From Oscillatoriales cyanobacterium (GTDB taxonomy: Bacteria; Cyanobacteriota; Cyanobacteriia; CACIAM-69d), in contig RDXB01000054.1 in the NCBI GenBank assembly GCA_004292515.1, positions 1-37,886 of the forward strand: a stretch of DNA of 37,886 nt. The letters run 5' to 3'. Within the stretch, counting starts at the first letter, position 1. Every line of letters starts with the position of its first letter. A program made the translations under genes and the position numbers. Under the pieces are notes generated by a model that did not search any database, was not told where the DNA came from, and saw only the letters and a list, made by a program, of their open reading frames with translations. This document shows, one piece after another, positions 27,048-37,886 of the stretch.

Positions 27048-27194
27048 TAGGATCTGTCATCCTTTCTCGGGTACAGGCTGAAACCGTCGATTTTCCATGC
27101 CCAAGTCGTCGTAACAATTGGCTCAAGCCCCTTGCTGCCCCACGATCTCGTCACGGTGGCATCAGGGTTTTGGGCGTTTTGACGACAAGCCCTA
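27048..27194 (+). repeat. Complete M2 MITE-like element with TA flanks
   Basis: TA lies at 27048-27049 and 27193-27194. The left end reads GGATCTGTCATCC and the right, inverted, GGGCTTGTCGTC. The inside includes GATTTTCCATGCCCAAG, CAATTGGCTCAAGCCCCTTG and ATCAGGGTTTTGGGC, shared with the other copies. The right TA and the adjoining G form the TAG stop of the uma2 gene. Confidence 0.7.
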
Positions 27195-27770
27195 ATCCCA
27201 TTTCACCGATCGATAAATCTTGACCAGGGGCAGACTCAAGCCCCCCGTGGCGATCGCCAACGCCTGCTCCAGTCCCGTGGTGCGTTTCCAGCGCCAATCG
27301 CCATCGTCACCCAGCCAGAAGCGATCGATTGCCGCCTCATCCTGAGACACCAGCAAATATTCGCGAAACTCGGGAATCGAACTATATTTTTCAAACTTTT
27401 TGGTGCGATCGTACTCGGCCGTGGAAGGCGACAACACCTCAATAATCAGGGTCGGGTTCAACACTTCATCGGTGCGATCGGGTGAAAAGACCGGATTGCC
27501 ATTGATCACCATCAAATCGGGATAAGTCCCGTGATTGTGGGCCGGCAACCAAAGGCGCATATCCAGCGCAAACACCTGATAGGGCGGCTGCAAATCCAGC
27601 AAACGAATCAGATTCAGACTGATTTGATTGTGGCTGGAGCTGCCGCCGGTCATGGGAATTTCTAAGCCGTTGTTGTATTCGTGGCGCTGGTCGCGTTGGC
27701 TTTCGCGGGCGCGATAGTCGTCCGGGGAAACGCGGTGGCTCGGGGGTGGGGCGATCGAGGTGGCAATCAT
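27192..27770 (-). CDS. Uma2 family protein (DUF820)
   Basis: The 192-residue protein belongs to the Uma2/DUF820 family of PD-(D/E)xK-fold predicted nucleases, much expanded in cyanobacteria. Recognisable segments are SPDDYRARESQRDQRHEYNNGLEIPMTGGSSSHN, YPDLMVI (the metal-binding Asp), and LIIEVLSPSTAEYDRTKKFEKY with the ExL catalytic acids. The biological role of the family is unsettled. The ATG at 27770 is chosen over a TTG five codons upstream. It lies downstream of the pot operon on the same strand. Its stop is created at the junction with the M2 element. A second uma2 gene begins at 37504. Confidence 0.85.
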   Translation of the reverse strand: MIATSIAPPPSHRVSPDDYRARESQRDQRHEYNNGLEIPMTGGSSSHNQISLNLIRLLDLQPPYQVFALDMRLWLPAHNHGTYPDLMVINGNPVFSPDRTDEVLNPTLIIEVLSPSTAEYDRTKKFEKYSSIPEFREYLLVSQDEAAIDRFWLGDDGDWRWKRTTGLEQALAIATGGLSLPLVKIYRSVKWD

Positions 27771-27818
27771 GGCAGTGGGGGGCAAGGGTCAACAATCGAA
27801 CCAGCCAGCGATCGCACC

Positions 27819-30960: not shown

Positions 30961-32091
30961 CTAGGCGGCCGACATGGCCAGCGCATCTGCCGTTGACCAA
31001 TAGGCATAGATCGGCGTGTTGAGGGCCGGCAATTCGCCACCCACATTCACCTGCATCACCGTTAGGCGATCGCCCGATCGCAGTTCTACCACGTAATGCA
31101 CATGGGTTCCCAGATACATCACGTTCTGCAACCGCCCCTCAAAGCAGTTCACCGACAAATCCGGCGGATAGAGACTGACCTGCACCTTTTCGGGCCGGAC
31201 GCTGACGGCAGCAGCTTCCCCAACACTGCCAGCCCAATCACCGCTGGGCGTGGCCACCAGTTTCAAGCCGTTGTCGGTGACGATCGCGCTGCCGGTGCGA
31301 TCAAACTCCGAAACGCGCCCTCGGAACAAATTCGTGTCGCCAATAAAATCCGCCACAAAGGGTGTGCGCGGCGACTCATAAATCTCGCTGGGGCTGCCGA
31401 TCTGCTCCACCCGCCCTTCGTTCATCACCGAGATCCGATCGGACAGGCTGAGGGCTTCCTCTTGGTCGTGGGTCACCATCACAAAGGTCAAGCCCAATTC
31501 CCGATGCAACGTGGATAGCTCCATTTGCATCTCTTTTCGCAACTTCAGATCGAGCGCCCCCAGCGGCTCATCCAACAACAGCACTGCGGGTCGATTCACC
31601 AGGGCCCGGGCCAGGGCCACCCGCTGCTGTTGGCCGCCCGAGAGTTGATTGGGATAGCGACGAGCAAACTTTTCCATCTTCACCAGGGCCAGGGCTTCGT
31701 TCACCCGTTCCTCGGTTTCCGCCTTGCCACAGCGCTTAATTCGCAACCCAAAGGCCACGTTATCCCAGATGCTCATGTGCCCAAACAGGGCATAGCTTTG
31801 GAACACCGTATTTACGGGGCGCTGGTAGGGCGGCACATTCAGCATCGATTGGCCGCGCACCAGCACCTCACCGGCCGAGGGCTGCTCGAACCCGGCGACG
31901 AGGCGAAGGGTTGTTGTTTTGCCGCAACCGGACGGGCCCAGAATGCTGAAGAATTCGCCGCGTCCGATGTGGAGATCCACTCCGCGCACGGCAGTTTCGC
32001 CGTTGTAGACTTTGAAAACTTTGCGAAGCTCGACATCGAGTTGGGTGTCGGTTTCGATCGCCTGGCTCGCTCGGACTGCGGTTTGGGACAT
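30961..32091 (-). CDS. potA: Polyamine-type ABC transporter ATPase PotA
   Basis: PotA hydrolyses ATP to drive the importer from the cytoplasmic side. The 376-residue protein has Walker A GPSGCGKTT (52-60), ABC signature LSGGQ (150-154), Walker B LLLDEP with Asp174-Glu175, and the H-loop VMVTHDQEEAL. The C-terminal TOBE domain (RPEKVQVSL, VMYLGTHVHYVVEL) is typical of the PotA group. The ATG at 32091 precedes SQTAVRASQ; the longer frame adds an unconserved leader. It is the first gene of potA-potD-potB-potC, so the operon promoter should lie in the region before 32483, which it shares with the PBP2-like gene on the other strand. Confidence 0.95.
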   Translation of the reverse strand: MSQTAVRASQAIETDTQLDVELRKVFKVYNGETAVRGVDLHIGRGEFFSILGPSGCGKTTTLRLVAGFEQPSAGEVLVRGQSMLNVPPYQRPVNTVFQSYALFGHMSIWDNVAFGLRIKRCGKAETEERVNEALALVKMEKFARRYPNQLSGGQQQRVALARALVNRPAVLLLDEPLGALDLKLRKEMQMELSTLHRELGLTFVMVTHDQEEALSLSDRISVMNEGRVEQIGSPSEIYESPRTPFVADFIGDTNLFRGRVSEFDRTGSAIVTDNGLKLVATPSGDWAGSVGEAAAVSVRPEKVQVSLYPPDLSVNCFEGRLQNVMYLGTHVHYVVELRSGDRLTVMQVNVGGELPALNTPIYAYWSTADALAMSAA

Positions 32092-32482
32092 GGCCGGTGA
32101 TGCTGCCGGTGGGGTAGTAAGGCTCAGGAGCAAGGTCGCGGTAACGATTTTGACTCCGTAGCGCGATCAAATTCTTGCCCTATTCTATGCCGACTGTTCG
32201 GGGTTTTGGGATCAGCCAGATGGTCAGCCCCCTCCAAAACCGGGATGCGGCAACCGTTACCGGGCGATCGCACCGGACTGGGAGCGATCGCAACGGGCAT
32301 CCGAGGGGGCGATCGATCCGGTGAATCGGGCCGGAACCCGCGACATTTAATAATATTGGTTAATTGATAGCCGGTTTGAGGCGCACTTTCGCCTATCACT
32401 GGGCTAGGACAGGGTTCCCATCCGCCCAGCGATCGCCCCGGGGCGGGGCCCTGTATGTCTGACTTGAATTTACCGCCCTTCC
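32092..32482. other. Divergent intergenic region between potA and the PBP2-like gene
   Basis: No gene is supported. Several CGATCG-type sites are present (for example 32276, 32285 and 32310). An AT-rich patch ACATTTAATAATATTGGTT near 32342-32360 is the most likely promoter area, but hexamers cannot be assigned with confidence. Confidence 0.4.
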
Positions 32483-34351
32483 ATGTCGCTATCGCCCGCT
32501 TCACCGCCATCCCCCAAGCTTGACCAGCAGCCGGAACGTACCATTGGCCGGCGCTATCAGCCCTTGGGGTGCTTGGTGGTGGCGGTGTTGCTGTTGGGGG
32601 GCATTGGCGCGCGGTTGGCCTATTTACAACTCGTGGAAGGCCAGCGCTATCGGCAATTGGTGGCGGCCAATCGGATTCGGTTGATGCCGACGCTGCCGAC
32701 TCGGGCCCAGCTTTTAGATCGATCGGGGCGAGTGCTGGTGGACAATCGACCCTCGCTGTCGGCGATGGCTTGGCCGATCGCTCAGTCGCCAGACCAGTGG
32801 CAGGCATTGTTGCCCAAGTTGTCGCGCGTGTTGGGGCGATCGGAAACGGAACTGAAGGCCCGGCTGGGGCAGTCGGGGTGGAGGTCGCCTGTGTTGGTGC
32901 GGTTGGCGCGGGGTCTGTCGCCGTCGCAAATGACGGCGGTGGCGGAGTTGGCCACCCAAATTCGGGGCTTGGCGATCCAACCGGAGTCGGAGCGCGACTA
33001 TCCCTATGGTTCCTTGGCGGCGGCCATTTTGGGTCAGGTGGGTGAAGTGAGCGCTACCGAAGTCGATCGCCTCGATCCGCTGCTGGACTATCGATCGGGG
33101 GATGCGATTGGGCGATCGGGTTTGGAAGCAGCCCTCGAACCCCAATTGCGGGGGCGATCGGGCGGCGAGCAGGTGGAATTGGATCGCTGGGGGCTGCCCA
33201 GTCGGGTGTTGGCCCGCAAGAGCACCGAGCCGCCATCGCCCGTGCGCTTAACGATCGATTTGCCGCTCCAGCAGCGATCGGAAGCGTTGGCTGCCTCGGT
33301 GGAGGGCGCGGCGATCGTGGCGATCGATGCGGATAACGGGGCAGTGCTGGCCATGGCGGGCCAAAATCGCAATCCCGCCGATCGAGTTTCACCGGGACTA
33401 AAAGCCGTGCCGCCTGGGCCTTTGTTTCAGTGGGTCACAACGGTGGCAGCCCTGGAATCGGGCCGCCAGCCGCCCCATCGACGCTTGGCGATCGACCCGC
33501 GCGATCGGCTCGGTGGGCTACCCTGGGCAGAATTTTTACGCGCCGACTGGCCCCATCGCACCAGCTTGGGATTTCGAGAAGCCCTGACTCGCCCCGGCCA
33601 ACGAGACAGCGAATCGTTTTTTGAACAAGTGGCGCTGAATCTCGACAGCACTAGCGTGATTGCCTGGGCACGGCGGTTTGGGTTTGGCCAGCGATCGGGC
33701 ATTGAGCTGGCCCAAGCAGAAGAAACGGGCCCGAGCCTAGAGGAGCTGTGGAAGCGGGAAGCAGTGCAGTCACGCTGGTACCTGGGCGAAGGAGTGAATT
33801 TTGCCCTTGGGCGCAGCGGTATGAGCGCCACCCCCCTGCAAATGGCCGTGATGGCGGCGGTGGCGGCCAATGGTGGCTATCGGGTGCAACCCCACTTGCT
33901 CCAAGACCGCACACCACGGGTGGGGCGCGAATTTTTAGGGTTGCAGCCCACCACCGTCACCACGCTGCGATCGGCCTTGCGGTTGCGTCGAGCGCCCGTG
34001 GAGTCAGCCAGCCAAGCGCGATCGCCCCTGACCGCAGCCGCGCCCCTGTCCTGGCTGGCGATCAGCAGCAGCGCCCTCCAGGACAATCGCCCCGTGGGTG
34101 TGTGGGCGGTGGGTTGTGCGCCCACCCAAAATCCCAAGCTGACGATCGCGGTGTTTGTGGAATTGCTGCCCGATCGGGTCTGGCCAGCGGGGCTGTCGGA
34201 GTTTACCGAGGATGCCGATGACGATCGCAATTTGGCAGCGATTGACGACTCGGGCTTGTCTGATCTGGCGCGGACTCAGCGTTTGGCCGACCAGATGCTC
34301 GGCACGCTGGTTTTGGATTATTTGCGATCGCCTGTCAATGCTTTTAACTAG
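32483..34351 (+). CDS. PBP2-like protein with degenerate transpeptidase motifs
   Basis: This 622-residue class B penicillin-binding protein layout is complete: one N-terminal membrane anchor (about 28-48), the PBP dimerisation domain, then the transpeptidase-like domain from about residue 255. The three catalytic motifs are not present as expected. The YPPGSxxK site reads VPPGPLFQ, so the nucleophile Ser is Pro313 and the Lys is Gln316. The SxN/SxD position aligns to DSE at 375-377. The KTG(T/S) motif is absent before the conserved VGVWAVGCAPTQNPKLTIAVFVE strand. Other family landmarks remain (FGFGQRSGIELAQAEETG, GEGVNFALGRSGMSATPLQMA). The frame is intact, so it is probably a pseudoenzyme with a structural role in the elongation machinery rather than decay. 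A catalytically normal PBP2 should exist elsewhere. Confidence 0.85.
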   Translation: MSLSPASPPSPKLDQQPERTIGRRYQPLGCLVVAVLLLGGIGARLAYLQLVEGQRYRQLVAANRIRLMPTLPTRAQLLDRSGRVLVDNRPSLSAMAWPIAQSPDQWQALLPKLSRVLGRSETELKARLGQSGWRSPVLVRLARGLSPSQMTAVAELATQIRGLAIQPESERDYPYGSLAAAILGQVGEVSATEVDRLDPLLDYRSGDAIGRSGLEAALEPQLRGRSGGEQVELDRWGLPSRVLARKSTEPPSPVRLTIDLPLQQRSEALAASVEGAAIVAIDADNGAVLAMAGQNRNPADRVSPGLKAVPPGPLFQWVTTVAALESGRQPPHRRLAIDPRDRLGGLPWAEFLRADWPHRTSLGFREALTRPGQRDSESFFEQVALNLDSTSVIAWARRFGFGQRSGIELAQAEETGPSLEELWKREAVQSRWYLGEGVNFALGRSGMSATPLQMAVMAAVAANGGYRVQPHLLQDRTPRVGREFLGLQPTTVTTLRSALRLRRAPVESASQARSPLTAAAPLSWLAISSSALQDNRPVGVWAVGCAPTQNPKLTIAVFVELLPDRVWPAGLSEFTEDADDDRNLAAIDDSGLSDLARTQRLADQMLGTLVLDYLRSPVNAFN

Positions 34352-37189: not shown

Positions 37190-37503
37190 CGTAGAGCAGT
37201 GGTTGGACTCAGGGCGATCGGGGTGAATGGCAACTCGCGAATTCTAGCGATCCGGTGCAACTGATTCAGTTTCAGTGCCAAGGGGGCGATCGCCAACATC
37301 TCCGCCGACACCGACATCCCTCTCTGATTTCAGAAAAACGCAGAGCGTCCTTGCGGCAACGATCGGTACACCACATCCCAGACACCATAAAGCAGTGAGT
37401 CGGTGAGCATTGCCCACCCTACTGGCTTGAGGTCACTGACAGGGCGATCGCATGGCACGATGTGCGACTTGTTACGATCAAGCCATGCCCAACCCAATCA
37501 ACC
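37190..37503. other. Intergenic region before the second uma2 gene
   Basis: I see no gene, RNA or repeat of the M1/M2 type here. A few CGATCG sites occur. No clear terminator follows the DUF4335 stop. Confidence 0.4.
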
Positions 37504-37886
37504 ATGCTCGCCACCGATCCGCTCTATATCAGCCCGGCTGACTACCTCGCTGCCGAAGAAGTTAGTCCCTTTCGCCATGAATACCGCGATGGTGAAGTCT
37601 TTGCCATGACCGGCGGTACACTAAATCACAACGCGATTATTGGCAACTTAGTCGCTATCTTCAAAAATCATCTACGTGGCTCTGGTTGCCAAACATTCTC
37701 CGAAAGTATTAAGACCCGTGTAGAAGCAAAGAATGCTTACTATTACCCAGATTTGGTTGTGACCTGTGATGATCGCGATCGTCGTCCCCAAAGCCATTAC
37801 ATCGAATATCCCCGCTTGATTATCGAAGTGCTTTCGCCCAGTACGGCCCGGTTCGATCGCACCGAAAAATTTGCCGATTACCGCAC
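37504..37886 (+). CDS. Uma2 family protein (DUF820), 3'-truncated by window end
   Basis: The first 127 codons are visible and the frame is still open at the window edge. The ATG at 37504 begins LATDPLYISPADYLAAEE, then FRHEYRDGEVFAMTGGTLNHN, with YYPDLVVTCDD carrying the metal-binding Asp and RLIIEVLSPSTARFDRTEKF carrying the Glu-x-Leu catalytic acids. It is therefore the same family as the gene at 27192-27770, but clearly a divergent paralogue. An ATG at 37485 is out of frame. Function of the family is unsettled. Confidence 0.85.
   Translation, partial: MLATDPLYISPADYLAAEEVSPFRHEYRDGEVFAMTGGTLNHNAIIGNLVAIFKNHLRGSGCQTFSESIKTRVEAKNAYYYPDLVVTCDDRDRRPQSHYIEYPRLIIEVLSPSTARFDRTEKFADYR

Follow-up and report, generated by a model that had tools for sequence, protein, structure and literature searches.

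The window, a stretch of 37,886 nucleotides of cyanobacterial DNA (genome G000), carries at 32483..34351 on the plus strand an unbroken reading frame for a protein of 622 amino acids, exactly the frame that had been read from the sequence alone. The protein is a class B penicillin-binding protein (PBP) of the PBP2 type and will be called pseudo-PBP2. Pfam recognises a PBP_dimer domain (residues 72-237, 122.4 bits against a cut-off of 24.4) and a Transpeptidase domain (residues 277-560, 77.1 bits against a cut-off of 22.1); no further convincing Pfam domain was found in the protein, and no extra signalling domain. The N-terminal membrane helix of class B PBPs is represented by a conserved hydrophobic helix in the AlphaFold model (residues 26-50, 32558..32632), preceded on the cytoplasmic side by the conserved motif RT(I/V)GRxYQPL. 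It is followed by the pedestal, or PBP dimerisation, domain (residues 59-262, 32657..33268) and by a transpeptidase-fold domain (residues 277-560, 33311..34162) that is catalytically degenerate, all on the plus strand.

The structure prediction and the alignments to PBP2 and PBP3 called for in the original prediction agree on a normal class B PBP fold. The AlphaFold model (pLDDT 86, pTM 0.83) has a complete class B PBP fold, its top Foldseek match is E. coli PBP2 (6g9p, E 3.9e-34), and VIA-align gives Z of about 31-32 against PBP3 and PBP2 structures. The domain order of membrane helix, pedestal and transpeptidase fold is that of PBP2/MrdA, as in E. coli 6g9p and the RodA-PBP2 complexes 8tj3 and 6pl5. 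In contrast to PBP2/MrdA, pseudo-PBP2 lacks the three catalytic motifs and the segment before SxxK, and it scores 278.9 bits against the NCBIfam equivalog TIGR03423 (pbp2_mrdA), below the curated cut-off of 455.

Divergently oriented beside it, at 30961..32133 on the minus strand, lies a gene that we take from its sequence and from family knowledge to be potA, encoding a polyamine ABC transporter ATPase. The intergenic region between the two genes (32134..32482) contains a short block that is conserved in all three species of the window's genus. Two further open reading frames in the window, at 27192-27785 and 37462-37884, resemble Uma2/DUF820 endonucleases as judged by eye.

Loss of the catalytic motifs

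Class B PBPs require an SxxK motif, an SxN or SxD motif and a KTG or KSG motif, and pseudo-PBP2 has none of the three; the nucleophile and the general base are thereby gone. In an alignment of about 95 cyanobacterial class B PBPs, its SxxK column reads PLFQ (residues 313-316, 33419..33430), as originally proposed. The second site reads DSE (residues 375-377, 33605..33613); this site had been described as a lost SxN, and the loss stands, but PBP2s normally carry S-x-D at this position, so the changes are S to D and D to E. The strand that should hold KTG reads ISSS (residues 527-530, 34061..34072) with the Lys position gapped, in keeping with the claimed absence of the motif. The protein had also been called normal in length, which holds overall but hides that the conserved FDPN...NRA segment immediately ahead of SxxK is missing.

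Could the active site have moved within the protein? An intact SxxK/KTG set elsewhere, which had been named as evidence against motif loss, was looked for and not found: phmmer against PBP2 crystal sequences and multiple alignments gave no alternative SxxK/SxN/KTG set in pseudo-PBP2. Displaced active-site motifs were rejected as an explanation, none having been aligned.

The order to which the window belongs was sampled by six genomes from three genera, of which G000 (the window's genome), G001 and G002 form the window's own genus and G003 and G005 a second genus, g2. The motif states are PLFQ/DSE/no KTG in G000, ALFK/DSD/no KTG in G001 and G002, PWMR/ASE/IGG in G004, and SLFE/LSE/SRS in G003 and G005. 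Because the five related genomes have lost the same three sites, chance or assembly error is ruled out. Outside these six genomes and one further genome, G055 (see below), the aligned cyanobacterial class B PBPs all retain SxxK, SS(D/N) and K(T/S)G. In genus g2 (L048:5537-7657 and L051:2658-4886), a low-complexity acidic insertion replaces the conserved transpeptidase loop before SxxK.

Genus g2 thus retains the Ser of the first motif, while two genomes of the window's genus retain its Lys, and therefore the residues were lost in different orders. These remnants are what might be cited for a non-canonical catalytic activity that uses other residues. Such an activity is very improbable, as the six pseudo-PBP2 sequences share no substitute nucleophile in the SxxK, SxD or KTG columns. 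The alignments strongly support the conclusion that pseudo-PBP2 cannot be a classical transpeptidase.

Retention under purifying selection

A motif-less orthologue with an unbroken frame is present in all six genomes of the order, and these frames span about 41% protein identity. A profile built from the six proteins scores its own members at 957-1098 bits; the next best match among 390 Cyanobacteriia genomes, in G055, reaches 613. Between the two closest genomes, G001 and G002, dN/dS is 0.084 over the whole gene; the pedestal alone gives 0.023 and the transpeptidase core 0.013. The value is 0.118 for G003-G005, and 0.208 for G000-G001, a pair whose dS of about 1.2 is near saturation. Over residues 59-475, which take in the pedestal and the transpeptidase core, only 2 of the 48 changes between G001 and G002 are nonsynonymous, where 74% would be expected under neutrality (binomial P ~1e-24).

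Is the gene simply a decaying pseudogene whose frame has not yet been broken? All its motifs are lost and it evolves faster than its intact relatives: the intact B- and C-group PBP2 paralogues have roughly half its dN/dS (0.04-0.10 for the same genome pairs), and constraint on it is therefore weaker than on the catalytic proteins. Decay is nevertheless barely credible given six intact frames, dN/dS of 0.01-0.2 and 17 nonsynonymous changes out of 83 in pseudo-PBP2 against the 74% expected. A reading as pseudogene or sequencing error was rejected on the conservation in six genomes together with dN/dS, which on measurable pairs lies nowhere near the value of 1 that the original prediction had proposed to look for. 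Retention under purifying selection is strongly supported, and with the motif loss it supports the earlier suggestion that the gene is kept for a non-catalytic function, classical transpeptidation being excluded.

Which parts of the protein are being kept? Reference positions were defined as those conserved in 90% of 58 catalytic A-group PBP2s, and the intact C-group proteins of the same genomes served for comparison. In the cytoplasmic and transmembrane part, pseudo-PBP2s keep 90-100% of these positions, against 80-90% in the C-group and 60-70% in the B-group. Between genera, no other region of the pseudo-PBP2 clade is conserved as well, and its conservation exceeds that of the same part of the intact paralogues. 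In the pedestal, the figures are 67-79% for pseudo-PBP2s and 75-79% for the C-group; since conservation here is not above that of the catalytic paralogues, RodA binding is not singled out. The transpeptidase core keeps 56-59% (C-group 84-88%) and the C-terminal half 37-53% (C-group 95-100%).

All pseudo-PBP2s share fourteen residues that are almost never seen outside the clade. Half of these (L419, E420, L422, Q429, R431, G437 and R444) form a clade-specific signature at residues 419-444 (33737..33814, plus strand), and therefore the transpeptidase core is under a new constraint of its own. This signature, which falls inside the transpeptidase domain, and the core dN/dS of 0.013 between G001 and G002 are what might be expected if the fold now served to bind or sense a ligand, be it muropeptides or some other periplasmic molecule, and had nothing to do with the control of RodA. 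We regard this as quite unlikely. Between genera, pseudo-PBP2s share only 19-30% identity in the C-terminal half of the fold, one genus has the low-complexity insertion in place of the transpeptidase loop, and the protein carries no additional signalling domain that was detected.

Origin at the potA-linked locus

Has pseudo-PBP2 arisen from a spare copy, or is it the ancestral gene? In many other cyanobacteria, a divergent potA lies beside a catalytic A-group PBP2. It adjoins pseudo-PBP2 in G000, G001, G002 and G004, and also the degenerate copy in G055; in genus g2, potA is not a neighbour of pseudo-PBP2. In a tree of the pedestal domain, the six pseudo-PBP2s are monophyletic (99/98) and nested in the A-group. 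From the potA-adjacent position and this nesting it follows that pseudo-PBP2 is the positional orthologue of the canonical cyanobacterial PBP2, whose potA-linked position it shares. It had been described as a PBP2 paralogue, which understates its standing; the catalytic copies are the ones found elsewhere. Gene order and phylogeny together indicate that the ancestral mrdA itself, and not some spare copy, became the pseudoenzyme.

The divergent potA-PBP2 pair (30961-34351 in the window; loci L013-L088) is widely conserved in Cyanobacteriia. The pairing is a possible link between polyamine uptake and the regulation of wall synthesis.

A second degenerate PBP2 is found in G055, which belongs to another family. 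Its potA-linked protein (L056:7713-9557, contig C36) resembles pseudo-PBP2 in its locus and in the degeneration of motifs 2 and 3, which read NSD and, in place of KTG, QGG. In contrast to pseudo-PBP2, it still has SPFK at the first motif and keeps 96% of the conserved transpeptidase-core positions, so that it is much less diverged than the pseudo-PBP2 clade. The pedestal tree places it with this clade at 94/95; placement with its own family was not rejected by the AU test (p-AU 0.208). It is plausible that the motifs were lost separately and more recently in G055, although the degenerate PBP2s of G055 and of the order may have a single origin. A second A-type copy in G055 is cut by a contig end, and G290, from the same genus as G055, yielded only a frameshifted B-type fragment.

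A proposed partner of RodA

Which proteins would surround a PBP2 that does not cross-link? Every genome of the order encodes two intact PBP2-type proteins, one each of the B- and C-groups. In the window's genome their genes stand in tandem on contig C63, and the products score 543 and 535 bits against the pbp2_mrdA cut-off of 455; the search for a second, intact mrdA in this genome thus yielded two. RodA and FtsW are the only SEDS proteins found, with two genes per genome (one found in G005; where there are three matches, the profile has split one of the genes), and no extra cognate SEDS gene for pseudo-PBP2 was seen in the order's genomes. MreC occurs in all six, with one RodA and one MreC per genome.

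An FtsI-type protein is present in five of the six genomes. In the G000 assembly no FtsI-type class B PBP was found (compare L089:3040-5058), which may reflect either gene loss or an assembly gap; the two neighbours of the FtsI gene in G001 lie inside two different G000 contigs (C49 and C84). G000 also encodes a class A PBP with an N-terminal FHA domain (L041:1666-4179, contig C2). The Leptolyngbya plasmids AP017309 and AP018204 carry a near full-length PBP2 homologue with 35-37% identity.

Our preferred reading, to which we give a probability of about 0.6, is that the ancestral potA-linked PBP2 (MrdA) has become a pseudoenzyme that serves as a partner of RodA and MreC, with cross-linking performed by an intact paralogue. 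Pseudo-PBP2 would dock through its membrane helix and pedestal on RodA, and possibly also on MreC. Once docked, it would control glycan polymerisation by RodA or the assembly of the elongasome, and cross-linking would be supplied by the intact paralogue, most likely the C-group protein encoded on contig C63. What we infer from the genomes is both the identity of the partner and the direction of the effect, be it activation or a brake. An elongasome role, which the original prediction also had in mind, would fit the occurrence of MreC and RodA, the conservation of membrane helix and pedestal, and the finding of no SEDS gene beyond RodA and FtsW. On the other side, the C-group PBP2 might be all that RodA needs, and pseudo-PBP2 might pair with FtsW or with a partner that has no part in the SEDS system.

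Published work on other bacteria speaks for such a role. RodA is activated by PBP2 (PMC6207328). In B. subtilis, catalytically inactive PBP2B (S309A) still supports division if PBP3 provides catalysis (PMC5656894), and in C. difficile, where SpoVD S311A and PBP3 S299A were constructed, PBP3 aids division without catalysis of its own (PMC12713402). These engineered dead class B PBPs thus show a structural role with a second class B PBP doing the chemistry, or without their own catalysis. They are laboratory mutants of active enzymes, whereas pseudo-PBP2 lost its motifs in nature and is fixed in this dead form throughout an order. Caulobacter DipM, an inactive LytM regulator (PMC10336132), likewise retains the fold of a cell-wall enzyme while acting as a regulator, as is proposed for pseudo-PBP2; DipM differs in belonging to an unrelated hydrolase family and in regulating autolysins. 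No precedent for a natural dead class B PBP was found in the open-access literature.

A more specific proposal, to which we give rather less than even odds, is that in this order the canonical PBP2 now acts solely as an allosteric, non-catalytic part of the RodA machinery while another PBP2 copy cross-links, so that two functions normally combined in a single protein, the activation of glycan polymerisation and cross-linking, would be divided between two. Alternatively, the dead PBP2 might be a competitive brake, occupying RodA or MreC and leaving fewer active RodA-PBP2 synthases, for example during stress or in one phase of the cell cycle. The same anatomy would serve, and each genome has a single RodA and a single MreC to compete for. 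However, in E. coli it is toxic for RodA to make glycan that is not then cross-linked (PMC6207328), so a dead subunit that also activated RodA would be costly, and the cell could bear a pure blocker only if its amount were kept in check; we consider a brake unlikely.

The question of an essential role of class B PBPs beyond cross-linking has so far been tackled mostly with inactive mutants made in the laboratory. A PBP2 that is dead by nature, kept in three genera at the ancestral locus with catalytic copies alongside, provides evolutionary evidence that a non-catalytic role can suffice to preserve such a gene, and it offers a ready-made tool for separating SEDS activation from transpeptidation. 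The case also illustrates that annotation by family alone can give the name 'penicillin-binding protein 2' to a protein that should not bind penicillin.
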